A DNA stretch of 37,660 nucleotides from Candidatus Zhuqueibacterota bacterium (GTDB taxonomy: Bacteria; Zhuqueibacterota; Zhuqueibacteria; Residuimicrobiales; Residuimicrobiaceae): positions 1-37,660 of the forward strand of contig CAUJEL010000207.1 in NCBI GenBank assembly GCA_963169875.1. Reading direction: 5' to 3'. The notes under the pieces were generated by a model. That model searched no databases. It was not told the DNA's origin and was given only the letters and a program-made list of their open reading frames with translations. Shown here piece by piece: positions 22,821 to 33,974 of the stretch. A program made the translations under genes and the position numbers. The number at the start of each line of letters is the position of its first letter. The stretch's first letter is position 1.

Positions 22821-24554
22821 TTAGCGGACCAGTGCCAGCTTGATCACCTGCTGCCGGTCGCTGGTGCTCACCTCTGCATAATAAACCCCGGTCGGCATGT
22901 CATTCCCGTCGGCGTCGCGGCCATCCCAACTCAGCGTGTGGCGGCCCGCGCTCTTGAATCCGCTGAAAAGCGTCTGGATGAGGCGCCCGCGCACATCATA
23001 GATCCCGGCGCTTACCTCCGTGGTCGCTGGCAGCTCCAGATCGATGCGGGTCGACTGGTTGAAGGGATTGGGATAATTGCCGCTCAACGCATACCCGGAC
23101 GGTGCAGTCGGCCGTTCGGCTACATCAGTGACCGCCAGTGAACCGTTGACGAAGAATCCCATGATATCTTCAAAGCGCCCGTTCGCCGGATCATAATATT
23201 CAAAGACCGAAAAAAATCGATTATTGACGGAATCCCAGGCCAGACCGATGCCGCTGCCCTCGTATTTATCGGTAGAGGAGAAGTAGTTGATGTTTTCAAA
23301 CTCGGTCACGGTGCTCACACCGTTGTGGGCGATGAAGGACATTTGCCGACTGCTCAGATCGACGCGCAGCCGTTGGCCATAGAGATCGGTTTTGAGCGCA
23401 GAGCTGTAGCGTGGATCGGCCCACATCACCATGAATTCATTGCCGGTGAAAGAAAAGGCTACTTCGGGTGTGCTGGCATCTCCAGGTGCCAGGCTGATGG
23501 GGAAATTGGAGCGTACGCCAGTGGAATCGCCGCTCAGATTGACCGGCCGCAGCCGAAAGTCGCTTCCTGTACGGAGAAAGTGGATGCGCTGCCCCCAGAT
23601 ATCATCGCTGGTACCATCGGGCGTTTTACGTCCTCTCCAAACCACCAGACACTCTTCCCAGGCGGGGCGGTAGAGACCGCCGCCTCTGTTGGCCTGGACG
23701 TTGGGAACAAATGTCCACGGGTCTGCTGTAAATTTTTCAGAGACCTGAAGGGGGTCTTCGGCGCCGCCGGCAAGAACCTGGCCGGTGCGACGCAGCAACA
23801 CGCCATCAGCACGGACCCGCTGTGCCTTGATATAACCGTCGCCCGTATTAAAGACTACGAGAAATTCGCGAATGCCACTCTCTGCGACGTCGACGGCGTG
23901 CTCCCAGTAGGCCGGATTGGCAGCGATCTTGAGATTGACCGCCGGATCAGCCGGCGCCGCCAGCGTGCCATCGGCATTGATCAACTGACCGTACACGTCA
24001 CCCCCATTCAGGTTGTAATGGAGCGGGTCATCGCGCCGGTCATTGCCCCACACCACCAGGAAACGGTTCAGGCCGGTGTTAAAGGCCACAGCCGCATCCC
24101 CGACACTGGCCGAATGGGTGCAGATCGGAAAGGAGTGATCACTCAGCGCCCCGGGCGCATCAAAAAATGAGCCATCGGCGTTGACAAAAACGCCGCGAAT
24201 ATCGCTGTTCGCAGCCGTATTGCGATAATCATTGAACACCACCAGAAAGCGCTGATTGACCGGATCGAAATCGACATGGGGTGCCCATTGATAGTTTTCG
24301 GCCCGGAGGATCGGGAAATTATCCCCGCGGGGCAAACCGTCGGCGGTTATAAACTGGCCATATATATCAGAATCAACATTGCGAAAATCCTCCCACACCA
24401 CCAGATATTCATTGGCATGAGGATTATAGGCTGTCTGCGGATAGTAAGAACTCACTTTGTTGATGGCAACGCTGATCGGCGGCGCGGTAAAAACCTGGCC
24501 GTGCAAGGGCACGGCCATAACAAGCAAAAGGTAAAAAAGCCGACTTTTTTTCAT
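22821..24554 (-). CDS. secreted repeat protein (probable beta-propeller) with C-terminal sorting domain
   Basis: The ATG at 24554 has AGGAG six bases upstream and opens a signal peptide (MKKSRLFYLLLVMAVPLHGQ); the frame's earlier start adds only five residues. The 577-residue product contains at least six repeats of 50-60 residues of the type YNPHANEYLVVWEDFRN-x-DSDIYGQFI-x-ADG, seen again as FDPVNQRFLVVFNDYRN, FNTGLNRFLVVWGNDRR, and more loosely WEECLVVWRGR and FTGNEFMVMWADPR. This points to a propeller. A FlgD/T9SS-type sorting domain occupies about 490-577 (NYPNPFNQSTRIDL, TGVYYAEVST). Such VVWxDxRN proteins are common secreted proteins in FCB bacteria; function is unknown, with binding to a surface or polymer the usual guess. 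Confidence 0.85.
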   Translation of the reverse strand: MKKSRLFYLLLVMAVPLHGQVFTAPPISVAINKVSSYYPQTAYNPHANEYLVVWEDFRNVDSDIYGQFITADGLPRGDNFPILRAENYQWAPHVDFDPVNQRFLVVFNDYRNTAANSDIRGVFVNADGSFFDAPGALSDHSFPICTHSASVGDAAVAFNTGLNRFLVVWGNDRRDDPLHYNLNGGDVYGQLINADGTLAAPADPAVNLKIAANPAYWEHAVDVAESGIREFLVVFNTGDGYIKAQRVRADGVLLRRTGQVLAGGAEDPLQVSEKFTADPWTFVPNVQANRGGGLYRPAWEECLVVWRGRKTPDGTSDDIWGQRIHFLRTGSDFRLRPVNLSGDSTGVRSNFPISLAPGDASTPEVAFSFTGNEFMVMWADPRYSSALKTDLYGQRLRVDLSSRQMSFIAHNGVSTVTEFENINYFSSTDKYEGSGIGLAWDSVNNRFFSVFEYYDPANGRFEDIMGFFVNGSLAVTDVAERPTAPSGYALSGNYPNPFNQSTRIDLELPATTEVSAGIYDVRGRLIQTLFSGFKSAGRHTLSWDGRDADGNDMPTGVYYAEVSTSDRQQVIKLALVR

Positions 24555-25269
24555 ACATAACTCCTGCACTTGTTCTTTTCATCTTGATAAAAATGGCGGC
24601 GCCAGCAGTTCTGGATCACCTCCGGAGCCGGGATGGTTACAGCCGTTTAATTAGTGATAATAACCGACTCGAATCTCCCAGCTATTCCAGTTTGAGAAGA
24701 GGGATGATGATACCGATGCAATTTATGGCAGGCGGATGTTTTAATGTGTTATCGGGGTTTCAAGTTGGAGCGGGATCTGAATGGATGCAATCAAGGTATC
24801 ATCTTGCACCGATACATCTGCTCGCAGAGTTCGAGCTGAGAGGCTTTGGGGCGGAGTTCTCTCGGTGGTGTGCCTGTTGGCATTTCGTTATTATGCGGGT
24901 TTTGCGGACGGAAGGCAGGCGCGCTGACGGAGCGGCTAAACAAACTATCCACGAGGACACACCTTCTTCCCTGTTTGATACGTGCAGAGATTCTTCCAGA
25001 CGTGCAGTCCATTTGCATTGAATTGGCTGGTTCATGAACAATACCCGGATTCTGTGCTAACTTGCCGGCAGCGATTGCAGGCCCGCAATTCATGGGTAAA
25101 TTGAATCAGGATTGCGCCGATCGAAGACACCGGATCAGGATAATAAAAGAGGCTCCCCCTGGCCTCATCCCCGCAGGAAATGATCTCTCAAAATTCTTAG
25201 AGTTGATAAAATAAATCTTGAATTATATGCAAATATTTTTAATTTAAGGTTTCAAGATAGGAATTGAGG
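24555..25269. other. long intergenic region between divergent genes
   Basis: Seven hundred bases separate the minus-strand secreted protein from the plus-strand sigma factor. Open frames exist (for example 24584-25021 on plus) but have no ribosome site or familiar motif. The segment 25044-25139 is one copy of a diverged repeat also found at 30176-30270. The last 80 bases are AT-rich and should hold the sigma-factor promoter; I see no consensus housekeeping box, which would fit control by an alternative sigma factor. Confidence 0.5.
25044..25139. repeat. diverged dispersed repeat, copy 1
   Basis: The segment starts CCCGGATTCTG and ends ACACCGGATCAGG. It shares with 30176-30270 the order CCCGGATTCT, TAACTT, TCATGGG, GAATCAGG and ACCGGATCAGG, at similar spacing and in the same orientation. 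It is non-coding in both places. Confidence 0.6.
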
Positions 25270-25830
25270 ATGGATAACAGTGCGGCAAGAGAGCTGATCG
25301 CTGCCATCATGAGGGGCGATTCTGAAGCTGAAAAATTATTCTTCGATGGATTCCGTCACGAACTCTTCTTTTTCATAAAGATGAGAATCGGCATGGGCAA
25401 TCCGGATGTAATGGATATTGCGCAGGATATTTTTATCGATGTATTCAGACGGATTCGCGCCGGGGAATATGATCATCGCAAAGGCTCTGCGGGCGCTTTT
25501 GTCATCACCACGGCCAAATTCAAGATAATGGATTATCTGAAAAGCCGGCATCATCGCAGCCATGCCTTGAAGAGCGAACTAATCGAGGAAAACATCCCAA
25601 ATCCGCAAGCACAGCCCATCGACCGCCTCATCAACGCGGAGGAGATACAGGCTTTTGCGAACATGCTCGACCGCCTGCCGCAGCCGCACCGGACTATTCT
25701 CATCAGATACTTTTATGACGGATTAAAAATACATGAAATCGCAGCGGAATTGGGATTGGATGAACAGCGAGTCAGCAATTACAAGAGCTATGCCCTGACG
25801 TTGATGAAAAAACTTATCCAAAATGTTTAG
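25270..25830 (+). CDS. ECF-type sigma-70 family RNA polymerase sigma factor
   Basis: I start at ATG 25270; the frame also opens at a TTG two codons earlier. TAGGA stands about 8 bases upstream. The 186-residue product has region 2 at about 23-95 (DVMDIAQDIFIDVFRRIRAG, TAKFKIMDYLKSRHH) and region 4 at about 125-182 (LDRLPQPHRTILIRYFYDGL, IHEIAAELGLDEQRVSNYKS), with no region 3. It is thus a small, extracytoplasmic-function-type factor, probably one that transcribes a narrow regulon, including perhaps its own operon. Next, 57 bases downstream, comes a membrane anti-sigma-like protein, the usual partner. The CHAT protease that converges on this pair may be part of the same pathway (inference). 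Confidence 0.92.
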   Translation: MDNSAARELIAAIMRGDSEAEKLFFDGFRHELFFFIKMRIGMGNPDVMDIAQDIFIDVFRRIRAGEYDHRKGSAGAFVITTAKFKIMDYLKSRHHRSHALKSELIEENIPNPQAQPIDRLINAEEIQAFANMLDRLPQPHRTILIRYFYDGLKIHEIAAELGLDEQRVSNYKSYALTLMKKLIQNV

Positions 25831-25887
25831 ATTTCTTCTGTAAACTCTAAGTATAGGTAGTACAGCCGACACAAAAATGAGGCGTCA

Positions 25888-26553
25888 TTGTACTTTTTCA
25901 TCCTTAAAAAACTGTTCAACAGAACTGACTATATGATTGATCGCTATCTTGATGGCAGCATGTCGGAAGCCGAACGGGAACGATTCGAGCAGCAGTACTT
26001 TGAGAATCGAGCGCTTTTCGATAAATTGCAGAAAAGAAGTGCACTGCGGCAACAACTCACAGGCATGTTGAAGCAGTGCGAGGATACGGTGCTCCACCCA
26101 CAAGACGGGCGGGAGGTAAGGACGCGTCACGGCTGGATCGATAATCCGGGAGGCCGCAGAAAGCTCGGCTGGGCCGGCGCGGCCCTGGCGACGCTGGGCC
26201 TTTTTCTGCTCATTTTCATCGTTCGGCCCGAGGATGAGGGCTCCTTCGCGGTCAATCGGGTGCTCGAAAAAGAGCTGGGCGTCCGCATTCTTCGCTCACA
26301 GACCGTCTCTGTACTTGCGCCCACCCTGTCGCAAAAAGTCTCCGGCACGATCACATTTGCCTGGGATAAGGGCCCCAAACCGCCCTTTGAGGTTGTCCTC
26401 ATCGACCATGCAGGAAACGAGGTCGCTTCCTGGCAGACCGATCAATACACGCTGCACCGTACCCTGGACTATCCGCCGGGCCTCTATTACTGGAAATTGC
26501 TCAGCCAGGAGGAATGGATCTATACCGGGAAATTTATCCATGCAAAACCTTGA
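25888..26553 (+). CDS. single-pass membrane anti-sigma factor-like protein
   Basis: The 221-residue frame starts at TTG 25888 with GAGG five bases upstream. An ATG at 25933 (residue 16) has no ribosome site but overlaps the stop of a 19-codon ORF (25877-25936) as ATGA, so leader-coupled initiation is possible. Residues 16-60 (MIDRYLDGSMSEAERERFEQ...) match the helical N-terminal sigma-binding segment of many anti-sigma proteins. There is no HxxxCxxC zinc motif, so it is not a redox-sensing ZAS protein. One membrane helix is at about 93-112, and the C-terminal 105 residues form a beta-rich periplasmic domain (SGTITFAWDKGP, PGLYYWKLLS) similar to FN3-like sensor domains. It should hold the neighbouring sigma factor inactive at the membrane until an envelope signal or proteolysis releases it. 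Confidence 0.82.
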   Translation: MYFFILKKLFNRTDYMIDRYLDGSMSEAERERFEQQYFENRALFDKLQKRSALRQQLTGMLKQCEDTVLHPQDGREVRTRHGWIDNPGGRRKLGWAGAALATLGLFLLIFIVRPEDEGSFAVNRVLEKELGVRILRSQTVSVLAPTLSQKVSGTITFAWDKGPKPPFEVVLIDHAGNEVASWQTDQYTLHRTLDYPPGLYYWKLLSQEEWIYTGKFIHAKP

Positions 26554-26566
26554 GGGACTCCTCATC

Positions 26567-26593
26567 CCCTGGGAATTGATGATAAACCCAGGG
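26567..26593 (+). terminator. candidate terminator of the sigma/anti-sigma operon
   Basis: CCCTGGG (26567-26573) pairs with CCCAGGG (26587-26593), 13 bases past the stop codon region, followed by CTCCCTTTTG. The right arm lies within the first unit of the tandem array. Confidence 0.5.
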
Positions 26594-27037
26594 CTCCCTT
26601 TTGTATAGCAAACCTGGGGACGCGATCAACGGATTAATCACCATGCCTGCCTGAATGAACCCAGGGCCCTCTCTTTTTAAAACAAGCTTGTGGACGCCAT
26701 CAATGGAGTATTCAACAGGCGTCACTGAATGAACCCATGGCCCCATTGTTACAGCATCCTGGTGGACGCGATCAATGGAGTCGTCACCGGGCATACCTGA
26801 ATGAACCCCTGGCCCCATTGTTACACCAAGCGGGTGGAGGCAATCAATGGAGTCATAACCTGGTATACCTGATAAACCCATGCCCCCTTTTTTTTACAGC
26901 AAGCTGGTGGAGGCAATCAATGGAGTCATAACCTGGCATACCTGATAAACCCATGCCCCATTTTTTTTACAGCAAGCCTGTGGACGCCATCAATGGAGTC
27001 ATCACCGGGCATACCTGAACGAACCCATGGCCCCATT
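26581..27037. repeat. tandem array of six 72-74 bp units plus a partial unit
   Basis: Units: 26581-26652, 26653-26726, 26727-26798, 26799-26870, 26871-26943, 26944-27016, and a 21-base partial 27017-27037. Each begins GA(A/T)(T/A)(G/A)AACCC and carries GTGGA(C/G)GC-ATCAATGGAGTC then CC(G/T)GG(C/T)ATACCT. Units become more alike towards the right: units 3-6 are closely similar while units 1-2 are diverged. Units of 72, 73 and 74 break any reading frame, so the array is non-coding. It fills exactly the gap between the converging stops of the anti-sigma gene (26553) and the CHAT gene (27038), so it lies in the 3' region of both transcripts. Confidence 0.9.
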
Positions 27038-29812
27038 CTACTCGCCATAGAGCACAAATCCACTCCACAAAGCCGGACTGGCATTCTGATTCGATTGAAT
27101 GAACTTGCATTTTGCCTGCCGCAGCGCCTCTTTGTAGTTTTTCGCAGTAAACGTATTTTCATAGAAATCGATCATGAGTTCGGCTGCCGCCTGGTCCTGC
27201 ACTTTCCACAGGGAGGCTATGACGTTGCGCGCGCCGGCATGGAGAAAGCACCGCGTCAGACTCATCAGCCCTTCGCCCTTGAGAATCTGGCCTACGCCGC
27301 TTTCGCAGCTGCTGAGGACGACCAGATCGGCGTCGAGGTTGAGACCGTAGATATCGCCGGCGAATAAAATGACGTCGTCCTGATTTCTGGCTTGCGCGCC
27401 ATGGAAGGCGATGCCGGAAAGTTGCGGCTGCTCCGGATTGACAAAGCTGTGCGTCGCGAGATGGATGACGCGTGCGCTATTGCATTCCTGCATAAAGCGT
27501 GCTTTGGAAGCCTGTTTCCCCTGACAGGAGGCGCCGCTGCGTTGATGTTTTTGAAACGTGGATACGATTTGACGGACCTCATGGGCGGAGGATGGCAATC
27601 TGCTAAAGCCATCCCCGGACCGGGTGATCCAGGATGGATATTTATTTTCGCTGTCGATAAATTGCGCGAACAAATCCGCGGCGTTTAATTTGAATCCCGG
27701 CTTGTCGCTGAACGGCGCATAGGCAAGCAGGTCATGGCGATTAACGGATGCACGCTGTCTTTTATCTGAGACAGCGCCTTGATAAATGCGCGAAGAGTAG
27801 TGATAGGAGATGTTGTGCTTCTCCACCAGATAGACCCGTCCGGCGTCCGCGACCTTGTTCATTTGCGGCAAAGAGGCATCTGTTGAACCGTCCGCTAGAA
27901 GCGCTTCATAGGCGACGCTGTAGAGAACGTCATGGGGGAGAATGACCAGATTCTCCCTGCCGGCGATCGCACCATGCACCGGTGCAATCAGCGTCTCATA
28001 GAGCAATCGGCTGCTGTTGAGGAAGAGGACCTCGCGGTCGCCCTTGATGGCCCGGCAGAAGGTGTGGATCTGTTCTCGCATTTCCGGGGTGAAGCTTTTG
28101 CGGACCACCTGGTGGCCATCTGCGTTGATGGCAAATATGTAGAGTGTGCTGTCGGCAATATAGTACTCGAGCAAAGCGCTTTTTTCATCCAGACTTTTGC
28201 CCAACTCTGCCATGGAGATGTCGCTGGGCGCATATTTGTGCCGGTAATAGTGCGGGTATTTCTTTTCCAGATCCCTGATCATCTGTTGATACTCGGAAGC
28301 GCAGGCATAATAGCTGGCTTGCAGCGTCAGACAGGTGCTGTCATCCGGTTGTGCGCCCTGTTCCATCTGCAGGTCGAGGTCGGTGATGGCCCGGGCGAGG
28401 CGGGCATTGAGTTCTCTTTCGCGTTCAAGCGTGGCTTCATCAATCCCGGATAATTTTCTCGTCTGCAAATCACGCAGCGCCAGAGCCAGCGCCGCGGACT
28501 TGCTTTGCTGCACGAAGCGAAAGGCCAATTCCTCATTGCGGTTTTTATCCATCAGGTCTGCTAATTCCAGCGCGACACCTGTCGCTTGCTGAAGGATCTG
28601 ATCGGCGCGTTCGCTGAGGATTTGCCGGGAGCGTTCCCGTCCGATTTGCAAATCGCGGCGCATGGAATCGAGCACCGCGGCGGCGATCGAAAACATGTCC
28701 AGGGATGCCTGCAGCTCCATGGCGGCATTTTTATTCGTGTGAGCGAGCCGGTGATGCGTTTTGGCCTTGATCTCGATCGCCTGCAGAAATTCTTGACTGA
28801 TGGGCCAGCTGGCTTGCCGCGGCGACCATCCGGCTTTGAGCTGCGGCGCCGGTTTGAAAGATTCCAGCGATTTATTGATAAATTCGAGGCTTCGCGGATA
28901 TTCCTGTCTGGCATAATAAAGGTCGGCGATGGCATTGTTGATGCTGCGATACATGAACGGCAGCGGTATATTAAGTTTTTGGTGAACGGCAGCCGACTTT
29001 TGGTACCAGAGAATGGCGTTGGCATGGTCCCCCATTTTTTTATAGACATCGGCAAGGTAATGGCACGAGTTGGCGAAATAGATGTTCTCACCATAAAGGG
29101 TTGCGATCATCGTCCGGGTGCGATTATGATATTCTACGGACTTTTCATATTCTCCTTTCATGCCGTACATTTCAGCGATATTGTTCAGGGGAGCGACCAG
29201 CTTTTCGTGGCAATCACCGTAAAGTGCGGTGAGAATATCATAGGCGGTTTTATAGTACTGCAGCGCTTTATCCCAATCGGACACCATGCCGTGGCAGTTG
29301 CCCAGGCCGAGATAGAGGTTGGCGGTAAAGGCGTGATTTTTGCCGACGGTCTCAATCGCGAGCGCCAGGGCGCGCTGGATATTGTCGAGAGCGCCGCCGA
29401 AATCCTGTTTGCGGCCGTACAGGACTGCCAGATTATGGTACGATTTTGCCACCATAATTTTATCGGGTTGAGGCTGGGCGAGACGAATGGCGAGCGCCTT
29501 GCGGAAGCAGCTGTCCGCTTTGGCGGGTTGATCGAAGCAGATTTCAGTCCAGCCGACGCTGTCGAGGCTCTCCGCCACTTTGAGATGATCCGGGCCGAAC
29601 AGGTTTTGGCGGATGGCCAGGGCTTGCCGCGCATGCAGCTGTGCGGTTTTAAAATCGCCAGTGCTGAAACTGGCGTGCGCCTTTTTTTGTTCCTCATCGG
29701 CCAGCAGGGTGTCGCTGCGAGTCGCAGTGGGGTTCGGCCGGCTTGTCTGGCTGATCAGCAAACCCGGCAGATAGAGAAGGAGGAGGAAGATTAGGGCCAT
29801 TCGCAACTTCAT
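27038..29812 (-). CDS. secreted TPR-CHAT caspase-like cysteine protease
   Basis: The 924-residue protein has a signal peptide (1-21, LLLLYLPGLLISQ). About seven tetratricopeptide repeats at 30-330 carry ALAIRQNLFG, YHNLAVLYGRKQDFGGALDN, LNNIAEMYGMKGEYEKSVEY and YLADVYKKMGDHANAI. A helical linker at about 340-560 has strong coiled-coil character around 400-520. A CHAT domain (about 640-924) holds the catalytic dyad: His788 in VIHLATHSF and Cys836 in LVVLSSCESGVG, followed by GEGLMSLTRCFLHAGARNVI and SLWKVQDQA. CHAT domains belong to the caspase/separase clan; TPR-CHAT proteins act in programmed proteolysis and type III-E CRISPR (Csx29). With a signal peptide this one should work in the periplasm or outside. 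It converges on the sigma/anti-sigma pair. A weak promoter TTTCAA-N17-TATATT lies at 29914-29886. Confidence 0.93.
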   Translation of the reverse strand: MKLRMALIFLLLLYLPGLLISQTSRPNPTATRSDTLLADEEQKKAHASFSTGDFKTAQLHARQALAIRQNLFGPDHLKVAESLDSVGWTEICFDQPAKADSCFRKALAIRLAQPQPDKIMVAKSYHNLAVLYGRKQDFGGALDNIQRALALAIETVGKNHAFTANLYLGLGNCHGMVSDWDKALQYYKTAYDILTALYGDCHEKLVAPLNNIAEMYGMKGEYEKSVEYHNRTRTMIATLYGENIYFANSCHYLADVYKKMGDHANAILWYQKSAAVHQKLNIPLPFMYRSINNAIADLYYARQEYPRSLEFINKSLESFKPAPQLKAGWSPRQASWPISQEFLQAIEIKAKTHHRLAHTNKNAAMELQASLDMFSIAAAVLDSMRRDLQIGRERSRQILSERADQILQQATGVALELADLMDKNRNEELAFRFVQQSKSAALALALRDLQTRKLSGIDEATLERERELNARLARAITDLDLQMEQGAQPDDSTCLTLQASYYACASEYQQMIRDLEKKYPHYYRHKYAPSDISMAELGKSLDEKSALLEYYIADSTLYIFAINADGHQVVRKSFTPEMREQIHTFCRAIKGDREVLFLNSSRLLYETLIAPVHGAIAGRENLVILPHDVLYSVAYEALLADGSTDASLPQMNKVADAGRVYLVEKHNISYHYSSRIYQGAVSDKRQRASVNRHDLLAYAPFSDKPGFKLNAADLFAQFIDSENKYPSWITRSGDGFSRLPSSAHEVRQIVSTFQKHQRSGASCQGKQASKARFMQECNSARVIHLATHSFVNPEQPQLSGIAFHGAQARNQDDVILFAGDIYGLNLDADLVVLSSCESGVGQILKGEGLMSLTRCFLHAGARNVIASLWKVQDQAAAELMIDFYENTFTAKNYKEALRQAKCKFIQSNQNASPALWSGFVLYGE

Positions 29813-30271: not shown

Positions 30272-31186
30272 CTATTTCTTCGCTTCTTTCAGCCGCTGAA
30301 AATTTATTTCAAACACGGACAGGTTGGCATCATTTTTATCTTTTGCCTTGAGGAAGGCTTTTTCATAATTGATCAGCGCCAGTTCGTTCTGGCCGTTGCG
30401 TTCGTACGCTTCACCGAGGCTGTCGAAGCAGTTGGCCTCATCCGGGAACAAGCGGGCGTTAGCCTTTAAGAGAACGATGGCATCAGGCATTCGTTGTTTC
30501 AGCATCATGACATAGCCCATTTGATTCAGCGCAGCGGGCGCCGTGATTCCGAACTCTGTTCGCCACTTTTCGTCGCTCATGGATTCCAGAGACTCAATTG
30601 GGGCGGCGAGAATGTCCATGCTCAGCGCGACCAGGGAAAGAGGCCAGCCAGCGGTGATGTTGCGGATCATGGTGGTATATTCGGCTTTCGGGCTGATCAG
30701 GGCTTCGTTAACCATGACCGTTTCATACGCCCGGTCGAGCGCGCCAAAATAGGTGGCCAGGACGCAGCCGGTCGCGGAAAGTCCAGACAAATACAAGGAG
30801 GTTACGCCTTTTGCCTTGAGCAGCTCATCCAGATTTGTTTTGGTGAAGGCGCTGGGGTGGTGTTTGATCACTCGGGGATCGCTCTCCAGGATATTGACAG
30901 AGGCCGGGAATTCAAAGGCCGGGTCGCCGGGCGCCAGGGGCTGGCCGAGTTCGTGGTGATAGACCAGAATGACGGGATAGTCATGTTTTCTGAACACTCC
31001 GATGAGCTCATTGATCGCCTCCATGCCGGTTGCGACATCCTGCTGATCCATCATGGGTAGATAGGCGTTCTGAATATCGATGACGAGCAGGGCCGGTTTG
31101 AAGGGAGGGGCAGCCGGCTGACTCCAGAGTGGCGTAATAAAAATAACACATAACAGCAAGGCTACTGTGGCGCCTGTTGATTTCAT
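30272..31186 (-). CDS. exported isochorismatase-fold cysteine hydrolase fused to TPR repeats
   Basis: The 304-residue protein has a signal peptide (1-22, FITPLWSQ) and AAGGAG five bases ahead of the ATG. Residues 28-195 are an isochorismatase/nicotinamidase-like domain with the Asp-Lys-Cys triad: Asp37 in LLVIDIQN, Lys108 in VIKHHPSAF and Cys141 in LSATGCVLATY. The cis-peptide region SGLSATGC is intact, so activity on an amide or enol-ether bond is expected. Residues about 225-300 form two tetratricopeptide repeats (NQMGYVMMLKQRMPDAIVLL, CFDSLGEAYERNGQNELALI). The fusion and the export signal are unusual, since most family members are cytoplasmic single-domain enzymes. It is transcribed alone, in the same direction as the CHAT gene but separated by a terminator. 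Substrate unknown. Confidence 0.9.
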   Translation of the reverse strand: MKSTGATVALLLCVIFITPLWSQPAAPPFKPALLVIDIQNAYLPMMDQQDVATGMEAINELIGVFRKHDYPVILVYHHELGQPLAPGDPAFEFPASVNILESDPRVIKHHPSAFTKTNLDELLKAKGVTSLYLSGLSATGCVLATYFGALDRAYETVMVNEALISPKAEYTTMIRNITAGWPLSLVALSMDILAAPIESLESMSDEKWRTEFGITAPAALNQMGYVMMLKQRMPDAIVLLKANARLFPDEANCFDSLGEAYERNGQNELALINYEKAFLKAKDKNDANLSVFEINFQRLKEAKK

Positions 31187-31589: not shown

Positions 31590-33974
31590 TTATCTTAGCA
31601 GCAGCATTTTCCTGGAAGCTGAAAAGCCACTTGCTGAGAGTCTGATAATATAGACGCCCGACGGTGCTTGACAACCATTTGCATCATTTCCTGACCATAT
31701 TACTTTGTACTTCCCTGTCTGCGCAGAGCCATGATGCAGCCTCGCGACTTGCTCACCAAGTAGATTTATCACTTCTACTTCTACTTGACCAGGATGAGCG
31801 ATGCTAAACTCGATATTGGTTTTGCTGTTGAAGGGATTGGGATAGTTCTGCAGTAGGGCAAAATCGAGCGGATGAGTGCTTGCAGATGTATGCTGAGCGA
31901 CAGCGGTGACTTGGGGCGCCCACGCCAGGCCCTGCAAACTCGCAACTCCGGCAGATCCGACGGGCGTTCCTGCACCTGTTTTAAGATCGATTGTGATGAT
32001 GGGGCTATTGGTCGAGTACTTTAAACCATAAAGTGTTCCCGAAGGCGAAAAAGAGATTGATGGCATCAGTATATTGTCGCCAGTCGCACCGATTATGGTT
32101 GTTGACCCATTTGAAGGATCGATGGTCACGAGGAGGTCCTTATTCGTACCTGAAGCAGAAGTCGCCGAGGCGTAGAGTTGACCAGTGGTAGGATGAGTCG
32201 CAAGTCCGTAGTATTTCAACTGTGGATCTGAACCGATGAGGGCAGTTTCACCGGATGCCAGATTAATACGGTAGAGCTGTCCACTCACCGTTGCGCCATA
32301 GAGGGTGTCCGTCTTAAAGGTAAAAGCTCGCATATTGCCGACCGGGAGTGTTTGCAAAAGAACAGTTTTTCCGGTGGTAGCACTGATGCTGTAAAGCTCT
32401 GTCATTCCTGTAGTGGTATTTGTGCCGATCAATTCCTGGGATATTGGATTTATCACGATGCTTTGTACCGGTTTCGATACCAAAACGGATGAAACAAGCG
32501 TAGCTTTGGCTGTCACCGGATCAACGGAATAAATGTTTTTCGCGGCCGCAGCATAAAAAGTACCAGGCTGAACACGCTCGATGGCTATTCCTTCGCCTTG
32601 TAACAAGATGCGGTATCGGTGTGACGAAATTGAGTTGCTTATGACAATGATTGAATCGCTTGTGACTTCTCCGGTAATCGGGGTAAAGCAAACATTGATA
32701 TTAACCGTTTCCAAGGAATTTAAGGTTGTAGGTAGAGCAAGGGAATTGCATATCTTGAAACTTATAGTTGACAGAATCATATCCGAAATTATCAGGGGAT
32801 TTGTGCCATAATTGGTGATAGAGAGATTTTGCGGTTTGCTGCTCATACCGGCATGGGTTTGATTGAATTTCATGATGGTCACAGGATAGCAGCCGATGGT
32901 GGCGTCCTGGCCAATTCTCCATTTATAGATCACGGTGCTGTTTTGAGCACCAGCCCAACCAATATCCCGAGATACAAATGCAGGAGTCGTTCGCGCAATA
33001 TCATCGATCTTTGTCCAGCTGGCGCCTTGATCTAAAGTAAAAGCAGTGCCAGGATATTTTCCAACCAGATTGCCCCAGGTACCTCCACCCGCGAGCATAT
33101 ACCCGGCAGGCGTTCCGGGTAAATAGGCAGCCCAAATACCGCTGACTTGTGGTTCGGTTGCAGTCCTGTTCCATGTCCATCCGCCATCGAACGTATTTGC
33201 AATTCCATAAAAGTCCATACCTGCCCCCGCTGCAACCAATCCATTGAGAGAATCCTTAAAAGCTGGCCAGACATGCACACTGGCCGGCGACATAAATTCT
33301 GTTCTCGAAACAGACCAGGTTTTTCCGCGGTCCTTGCTTTTGAAGACTCGACCGCTTGATCCATAGCACCCGCCATAGATTACGGTGTTTCCAGCCGTAC
33401 AGTACATGTTAATGGATGCGTACTCTCCAGTCAGCAAGGGCACATTGCATGAATCTGGGATGCGTTGCCAGGTCGCACCTCCATCTAATGAAGTAAATAT
33501 TGAATTATAACCATTTTCCGGATCGAAAAGCGCAAAACCATCGTTCGCATCAAAAAAGTGGACAAAGGCGGGCCCTGTATTGGGGATTGGAATTCCATTT
33601 GTTTGCAATGTCCAAGTTTTTCCACCATCTGAGGTTTTATAGACCCCTGCTTTCTCAGACTGTCCCCATAATGCGGCTGCAACCCAGGCCGTGCTCTCAT
33701 CGATGGCGGAGATATTGCAGAGGAAAAAATTATCCGGGAGAGGGATTTGCCCGGACAGCCAATTTTCACCACCATCTACTGTTCGGCAAAACCAGGTACA
33801 GGGTGAAAACCCGCCACCCGTATTATCCATTCCACACGCCCATACTACATTTTCATTAATGGCGCTGATTCGATAAACGTTCTTTTTTGCGGGGAAATTA
33901 GACTGCTGCACGATCCACTGCGCAGACACAATTGAGCAAAAAATCGTTATTAGTAACAACGCTGTTTTTTTCAT
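31590..33974 (-). CDS. secreted Ycf48/BNR-repeat protein with ASH-like domain and sorting domain
   Basis: The 794-residue protein has a signal peptide (1-18) and AGGAGG four bases ahead of the ATG. Residues 20-360 carry Asp-box repeats as in Ycf48/sialidase propellers: TVDGGENWLSG, TSDGGKTWTLQ, SLDGGATWQRI, SKDRGKTWSVS and TFDGGWTWNRT. Residues about 365-465 form an ASH/choice-of-anchor-like domain (LSITNYGTNPLIISDM). Residues 470-700 form a second propeller-like part (YSVDPVTAKATLVSS, LYRINLASGETALIG). The last 80 residues are the FlgD/T9SS-type sorting domain (NYPNPFNSKTNIEF, PSGVYIIRLSASG). It is AT-richer than most genes of the window, which suggests more recent arrival or different selection. 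No enzymatic motif was recognised; binding or adhesion is likely. Confidence 0.87.
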   Translation of the reverse strand: MKKTALLLITIFCSIVSAQWIVQQSNFPAKKNVYRISAINENVVWACGMDNTGGGFSPCTWFCRTVDGGENWLSGQIPLPDNFFLCNISAIDESTAWVAAALWGQSEKAGVYKTSDGGKTWTLQTNGIPIPNTGPAFVHFFDANDGFALFDPENGYNSIFTSLDGGATWQRIPDSCNVPLLTGEYASINMYCTAGNTVIYGGCYGSSGRVFKSKDRGKTWSVSRTEFMSPASVHVWPAFKDSLNGLVAAGAGMDFYGIANTFDGGWTWNRTATEPQVSGIWAAYLPGTPAGYMLAGGGTWGNLVGKYPGTAFTLDQGASWTKIDDIARTTPAFVSRDIGWAGAQNSTVIYKWRIGQDATIGCYPVTIMKFNQTHAGMSSKPQNLSITNYGTNPLIISDMILSTISFKICNSLALPTTLNSLETVNINVCFTPITGEVTSDSIIVISNSISSHRYRILLQGEGIAIERVQPGTFYAAAAKNIYSVDPVTAKATLVSSVLVSKPVQSIVINPISQELIGTNTTTGMTELYSISATTGKTVLLQTLPVGNMRAFTFKTDTLYGATVSGQLYRINLASGETALIGSDPQLKYYGLATHPTTGQLYASATSASGTNKDLLVTIDPSNGSTTIIGATGDNILMPSISFSPSGTLYGLKYSTNSPIITIDLKTGAGTPVGSAGVASLQGLAWAPQVTAVAQHTSASTHPLDFALLQNYPNPFNSKTNIEFSIAHPGQVEVEVINLLGEQVARLHHGSAQTGKYKVIWSGNDANGCQAPSGVYIIRLSASGFSASRKMLLLR

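Follow-up and report, generated by a model that had tools for sequence, protein, structure and literature searches.

In type III-E CRISPR-Cas systems, the sigma factor CASP-sigma is inhibited by Csx30, which the CHAT protease Csx29 cuts once Cas7-11 has bound its target RNA (PMC10028731). The signal that activates DdvA, the transmembrane anti-sigma factor of the Myxococcus DdvS/DdvA pair, was not known as of 2015 (PMC4374960), and bacterial EACC2/TRADD-N systems also have genes for extracytoplasmic function (ECF) sigma factors next to their caspase genes (PMC8195603). Here we describe a locus in which an ECF sigma factor, a single-pass membrane anti-sigma factor and a tetratricopeptide repeat (TPR)-CHAT protease predicted to be exported are encoded together. 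It is located on contig C207 (the window, i.e., the whole 37,660-nucleotide stretch of DNA that was analysed), which comes from a 5.0 Mb genome whose closest named relative is bacterium UBA2214; the other close matches are mostly to candidate division KSB1. For most bacterial TPR-CHAT proteins we know of no assigned substrate. The genomic rule reported below for this class offers a candidate, the adjacent membrane anti-sigma factor, together with a predicted cut site.

The first-pass annotation of the window had proposed a small sigma factor, a one-pass anti-sigma-like protein without a zinc motif and, on the opposite strand, a CHAT protease with a signal peptide and an intact His788/Cys836 dyad, and all three genes were found where it had placed them (Table 1). 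The sigma and anti-sigma genes follow one another on the forward strand with a gap of 57 bases, and the CHAT gene converges on the pair from the reverse strand. The sigma gene encodes a short protein (188 aa) in which regions 2 and 4 (Sigma70_r2 and Sigma70_r4) both score above cut-off, as does TIGR02937, bearing out the proposed identity; its open reading frame (ORF) opens at a TTG at 25264, and the ATG at 25270 is the likelier start. In the CHAT protein, TPR repeats precede a CHAT domain that scores 201.6 bits on PF12770 against a curated cut-off of 24. The AlphaFold model of the protein (pLDDT 87, pTM 0.86) has Csx29, separase and DdvA as its nearest folds, plus many TPR proteins. The PF12770 domain and the intact His/Cys dyad predict that the protein is a peptidase. 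His788, Cys836 and Asp873 are unchanged in 46 of 46 CHAT proteins at identities down to 23%, which indicates selection for catalysis, and an N-terminal signal sequence is predicted, so that both features proposed for the enzyme have held up.

Linkage between CHAT and sigma genes was surveyed in 80 stretches of the class surrounding CHAT genes, which were picked by PF12770 score irrespective of any sigma gene and from which already known loci were excluded; the sigma profile was iterated for later searches. A sigma gene lay within 3 kb of 29 of the 48 TPR-CHAT genes that had both 3-kb flanks assembled. About 1.4 of 48 (roughly 3% per gene) would be expected by chance from the background of 1393 sigma matches in 315 Mb, or 4.4 per Mb of the class. 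When partly assembled flanks were allowed, the count was 39 of 60 TPR-CHAT genes, with the sigma gene upstream in the same direction in 25 of the 39 loci, downstream in 8 and convergent in 6. In the same genomes, giant CHAT genes (~2,800 aa) were never near a sigma gene (0 of 13), and the same contigs contained one sigma gene in 173 kb at distances of more than 5 kb from CHAT genes. On the CHAT tree, the presence of a linked sigma gene changes 18 times as compared with 43 after shuffling, and 0 of 500 shuffles were as low; the surveyed CHAT genes are related by descent, but the tree contains many separate sigma-linked lineages. The window CHAT belongs to a well-supported clade of 29 rows, 24 of which have a readable neighbourhood; 20 of these have a sigma gene, and 18 of the 20 have this type of anti-sigma factor as well. 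The reverse test, in which the anti-sigma profile was used for searching, returned 17 members of the type in the phylum. Twelve of the 14 with readable flanks, one of them from another class (L311), adjoin a CHAT gene, the two exceptions being in genomes G001 and G049, and the remaining three end at contig ends. Taken together, a functional link among the three genes is very likely.

The same convergent arrangement of a sigma/anti-sigma pair and a CHAT gene was found in six further genomes (G019, G022, G016, G026, G013 and G009), and searches with each protein separately led to the same loci. A second sigma/anti-sigma/CHAT set is present in the window's own genome (L039 3810-9166, G000:C137); its proteins are ~27-31% identical to those of the window, its gene order is divergent and its anti-sigma factor has a zinc motif. 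The 77 named loci add trios from Calditrichota, Aminicenantes, Bacteroidales and Microscillaceae and include three gene orders (convergent, one operon and divergent), and the trio also occurs in another class of the phylum (L311). Because the CHAT proteins of trio loci are just ~25-35% identical, the order of the trio must have persisted, or have been re-established, during long evolutionary spans. For this anti-sigma type the commonest order is convergent, which gives the pair and the CHAT gene separate promoters. The annotation had staked its proposal on the neighbourhood being kept in relatives; this holds across several phyla and fails in a same-genus genome and in most Bacteroidota loci, as detailed below. 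In the trio loci checked, the CHAT N-termini are signal- or lipoprotein-like (the start in L082 is uncertain) and the anti-sigma factors are single-pass proteins with ectodomains of 104-188 residues. Since the CHAT protein is predicted to be exported and the anti-sigma factor to have a periplasmic domain, the two are predicted to share a compartment in these loci, in agreement with the periplasmic encounter that had been suggested.

From its structural model and hydropathy, the anti-sigma factor consists of a helical N-terminal domain (helices at residues 12-22, 27-39 and 41-69 of the model), one transmembrane (TM) segment (model helix 94-111) and, beyond a flexible stretch, a C-terminal domain of Ig/FN3-like fold. 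Its profile weakly matches the solved anti-sigma factor 3hug (E 0.002), and no family scores above cut-off on the window protein itself, zf-HC2 reaching 16.8 bits versus a cut-off of 22.2. The protein has the architecture of the zinc-binding anti-sigma (ZAS) type, in which a helical anti-sigma domain is followed by a single TM helix. The proposed single membrane pass is thus retained, and the HxxxCxxC zinc motif is indeed absent from the window protein, but the absence is a local one: as 18 of 23 related anti-sigma factors of the same type retain HxxxCxxC, the window protein counts by descent as a member of the ZAS lineage and has lost the motif locally. Foldseek searches with the Ig-like domain returned general Ig/FN3 folds only. 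A type IX sorting domain, which the C-terminus resembles, was considered for this region and rejected on the insignificant profile match (8glj, E 0.88).

Anti-sigma factors adjacent to CHAT genes elsewhere (L041, L044, L191, L192, L195 and L202) carry TPR-like in place of Ig-like ectodomains; the link to CHAT is retained across ectodomain types. In a further variant, a sigma gene is followed in the same direction by a gene for a 130-176 aa protein and then by a CHAT gene (L227, L241, L272, L274, L275, L276 and L280). The intervening protein has no TM segment, ends in an HLNxCxxCF-like motif and is perhaps a soluble zinc anti-sigma factor.

The linker between the TM segment and the Ig-like domain contains Arg136, which is followed by Ser, Gly, Ala or Thr in all 22 anti-sigma factors of the type that have the Arg, within otherwise variable surroundings. 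In the model the segment forms a loop, with lower confidence (pLDDT block mean 69). Separase cleaves after Arg; its residue Asp2151 binds the P1 Arg, and the Csx29 counterpart is Lys670 (PMC9729208). Motif, spacing and the published residue numbers place Asp873 of the window CHAT at the probable position of separase Asp2151, and DdvA also has an Asp there. A hidden Markov model alignment to Csx29 puts a Ser in the Asp873 column, whereas PMC9729208 names K670; the counterpart is therefore alignment-dependent, and neither residue is Asp. The near-invariant linker Arg would fit the predicted Arg-type S1 site of the CHAT protein. Because the dyad and Asp873 are invariant and Arg136 is conserved in a flexible linker, proteolysis is suggested rather than binding alone. 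The genome also contains two matches to PF02163, the M50 site-2 protease family.

The most likely mechanism, to which we give an even chance or slightly better on these comparisons, is that the periplasmic CHAT protein acts as the site-1 protease of the anti-sigma factor; that Arg136 is the cut site is a more tentative assignment, somewhat short of even. In the course of events that we infer, from signal through cutting to the later steps, the cytoplasmic N-terminal domain of the anti-sigma factor would tether the ECF sigma factor to the inner membrane of the resting cell, and the TPR-CHAT enzyme would be exported to the periplasm. There the TPR arm may sense an envelope-derived signal or partner, or may dock on the anti-sigma factor. 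As the site-1 step, the activated His788/Cys836 protease would cut the linker between the membrane and the Ig-like domain, most likely just C-terminal to Arg136. Cleavage there would produce a membrane-bound stub as substrate for a site-2 protease, presumably of the M50 family encoded in the genome. Cytoplasmic proteases would complete the breakdown of the anti-sigma factor and free the sigma factor.

Several observations weigh against this mechanism or limit its reach. In G001, the closest relative and from the same genus, the sigma/anti-sigma pair and the CHAT homologue are on different contigs: a Na/Pi cotransporter gene follows the pair, and the closest homologue of the window CHAT is on a separate 3.6-kb contig. 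Linkage in G001 is lost or not assembled, yet all three partners are retained. Genome G049 has an anti-sigma factor of this type without an adjacent CHAT gene. Only 4 of 42 CHAT genes of this family in Bacteroidota have a sigma gene within 3 kb, and because most Bacteroidota copies have no sigma neighbour, TPR-CHAT proteins must also have other jobs. With regard to the cut site, the more distant TYFW-type anti-sigma factors of CHAT loci have not retained Arg136, the spacing of E127 and R136 does not fit the ExxR site of separase, and the invariant linker Arg could be structural instead. The Bacteroidota counts and the giant CHAT genes rule out that every such TPR-CHAT gene is tied to a sigma factor; KSB1 and Calditrichota are the groups in which the sigma link is typical, with scattered occurrences elsewhere. 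The cell-death switch that the first-pass annotation had offered as one possible output finds no support in anything seen here.

Among the alternatives, the one that survives best, although we consider it unlikely, makes the CHAT protein an output: the sigma factor would drive the CHAT gene, and the exported protease would cut other proteins of the envelope or serve as a stress effector. Target genes of the sigma factor are included in many sigma operons, and codirectional sigma/anti-sigma/CHAT operons exist, as indicated by the 25 of 39 loci with the sigma gene upstream in the same direction; the order that is commonest for the window's anti-sigma type, however, is the convergent one with its separate promoters. 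The upstream regions of sigma and CHAT genes, compared in 21 non-operon loci against shuffled pairings, were slightly more alike within a locus (10.6 vs 10.4, p = 0.053); at this level a CHAT promoter resembling that of the sigma gene is not supported. Expression under the sigma factor would leave the near-invariant linker Arg and the matching compartment unexplained. The CHAT protein could be both regulator and sigma target, giving positive feedback.

A less probable alternative, which we judge rather improbable, is that the CHAT protein is a non-proteolytic periplasmic co-sensor, its TPR-CHAT body binding the Ig-like domain and signalling without cutting, in the manner of a split DdvA. The invariance of His788, Cys836 and Asp873 across all 46 proteins argues against a body that merely binds, even though DdvA bears a CHAT domain on the anti-sigma factor itself and the PGLYYW...GKF motif of the ectodomain is strongly conserved. 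Chance neighbourhood, or a general clustering of regulator genes without a functional link, is highly improbable: the missing linkage in one close relative, in G049 and in most Bacteroidota would agree with it, but the class survey (29 of 48 genes, with none of the 13 giant genes) and the reverse test (12 of 14) lead us to reject it.

A 73-bp tandem repeat, for which a search of the genome found no second place, occupies 453 bases and fills the gap between the anti-sigma gene and the CHAT gene that converges on it. Adjoining the CHAT gene is a gene for an isochorismatase-family hydrolase (30272-31186, reverse strand) that starts with a signal-like sequence and ends in a TPR stretch, and the module is flanked by two secreted proteins with type IX-like sorting domains (22821-24569 and 31590-33974, reverse strand). 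The PADLOC match to the window is to generic TPR only, with no known defence system. Tandem arrays of two to four TPR-CHAT genes occur in L085 (33-13037), L078 (9455-15940) and L081; the Bacteroidales locus L085 has four in a row, with no sigma gene found. The ~2,800-aa CHAT protein is encoded in many genomes of the class (L291-L310), never near a sigma gene in the stretches read, and the copy in the window's own genome, on contig C195, has two CHAT matches.

Table 1. Features of the sigma/anti-sigma/CHAT locus, in window coordinates.
Feature	Position	Strand	Basis
ECF sigma factor	25270..25830	+	TIGR02937 E 2.4e-20; PF04542/PF04545/PF08281 above cut-off
Single-pass anti-sigma factor, 221 aa	25888..26553	+	directly 3' of sigma gene; domain layout; weak profile match
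Anti-sigma TM segment, residues 94-112	26167..26223	+	hydropathy 2.22; charge +3 before, -2 after; helix in model
Arg136-Ser137 codons, juxtamembrane periplasmic linker, candidate cleavage site	26293..26298	+	Arg136 in 22/23 anti-sigma factors of the type
Ig/FN3-like periplasmic domain, residues 142-218	26311..26541	+	conserved PGLYYWKL...GKF motif
73-bp tandem repeat	26585..27037	.	6.2 copies, 79% matches; fills space between converging genes
TPR-CHAT protease, 924 aa, predicted exported	27038..29812	-	PF12770 E 2.3e-59 over residues 600-924; PF13424
Asp873 codon, SLWKVxD motif, candidate S1 residue for P1 Arg	27194..27196	-	invariant 46/46
Catalytic Cys836 codon	27305..27307	-	invariant in 46 aligned CHAT proteins
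Catalytic His788 codon	27449..27451	-	invariant in 46 aligned CHAT proteins
Predicted signal sequence, residues 1-21	29750..29812	-	hydrophobic N-terminus; other listed trio CHAT N-termini signal- or lipoprotein-like

A full-text literature search for CHAT with anti-sigma factors returned PMC10028731 only, and no description of a free-standing exported CHAT protein with a membrane anti-sigma factor was found in the literature searched, which covers part of the journals and is not proof of novelty. The closest parallels are the type III-E circuit and DdvA. Like Csx29/Csx30/CASP-sigma/RpoE, the window module encodes a TPR-CHAT protease, an ECF-like sigma factor and a sigma inhibitor together, and Csx29 is the nearest full-length fold to the window CHAT (8eey, Z 28.0, 506 residues aligned, Foldseek rank 1). 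Csx29, however, is cytosolic and triggered by RNA-guided Cas7-11, whereas the window CHAT is predicted to be exported; the inhibitor here is a membrane protein with an Ig-like ectodomain, unlike Csx30; and where Csx29 has K670 as the separase P1-Arg residue (PMC9729208), the window CHAT apparently has Asp. On the NCBIfam Csx29 model the window CHAT scores 24.8 bits against a cut-off of 300. DdvA couples a membrane anti-sigma factor to a CHAT domain in a solved chain (8rot, 8rw5). It is the best PDB sequence match of the CHAT profile (E 6.5e-5), with His, Cys and Asp aligned, and its N-terminus weakly matches the anti-sigma profile. DdvA differs in being one fused chain, whereas the CHAT protein here is a separate, predicted exported protein; no CHAT ORF in the loci examined matches the anti-sigma model, and none is fused. 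On the inferred mechanism the window module would operate along the lines of the Csx29 and DdvA systems, but it is a member of neither: its score on the Csx29 model is far below cut-off, the protease is exported by prediction, and the CHAT and anti-sigma proteins are encoded as two chains.

More distant systems share parts of the scheme. As in RseA/DegS/RseP and RsiW, there is a membrane anti-sigma factor with a periplasmic domain, a proposed periplasmic site-1 cut and an M50 protease in the genome; where RseA/DegS/RseP relies on a Ser protease with a PDZ domain for the site-1 cut, the window module would use a TPR-armed Cys protease of clan CD. In CalpL/CalpT/CalpS (a type III CRISPR SAVED-Lon protease, anti-sigma and sigma), protease, anti-sigma factor and ECF sigma factor are likewise encoded and act together, but CalpL is a Lon-type protease with a cyclic oligoadenylate trigger (PMC11417357). 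Separase shares the clan CD fold with a helical arm (Z about 22-23 over 627-684 residues against the window CHAT) and differs as a eukaryotic enzyme with cohesin as substrate and securin control.

The module is apparently an extracytoplasmic, CRISPR-independent variant of protease-controlled anti-sigma regulation. If the proposed mechanism is true, control of sigma inhibitors by CHAT proteases is not a CRISPR speciality, a separase-like enzyme joins the short list of envelope-stress site-1 proteases, and a possible origin of the Csx29 circuit is hinted at. At its broadest, a reading we advance cautiously and hold to be less than evenly probable, the locus would represent a widespread, CRISPR-independent form of envelope signalling with a periplasmic, separase-like, Arg-specific protease as dedicated site-1 protease, a free-standing and perhaps older counterpart of Csx29/Csx30/CASP-sigma and of the fused DdvA.

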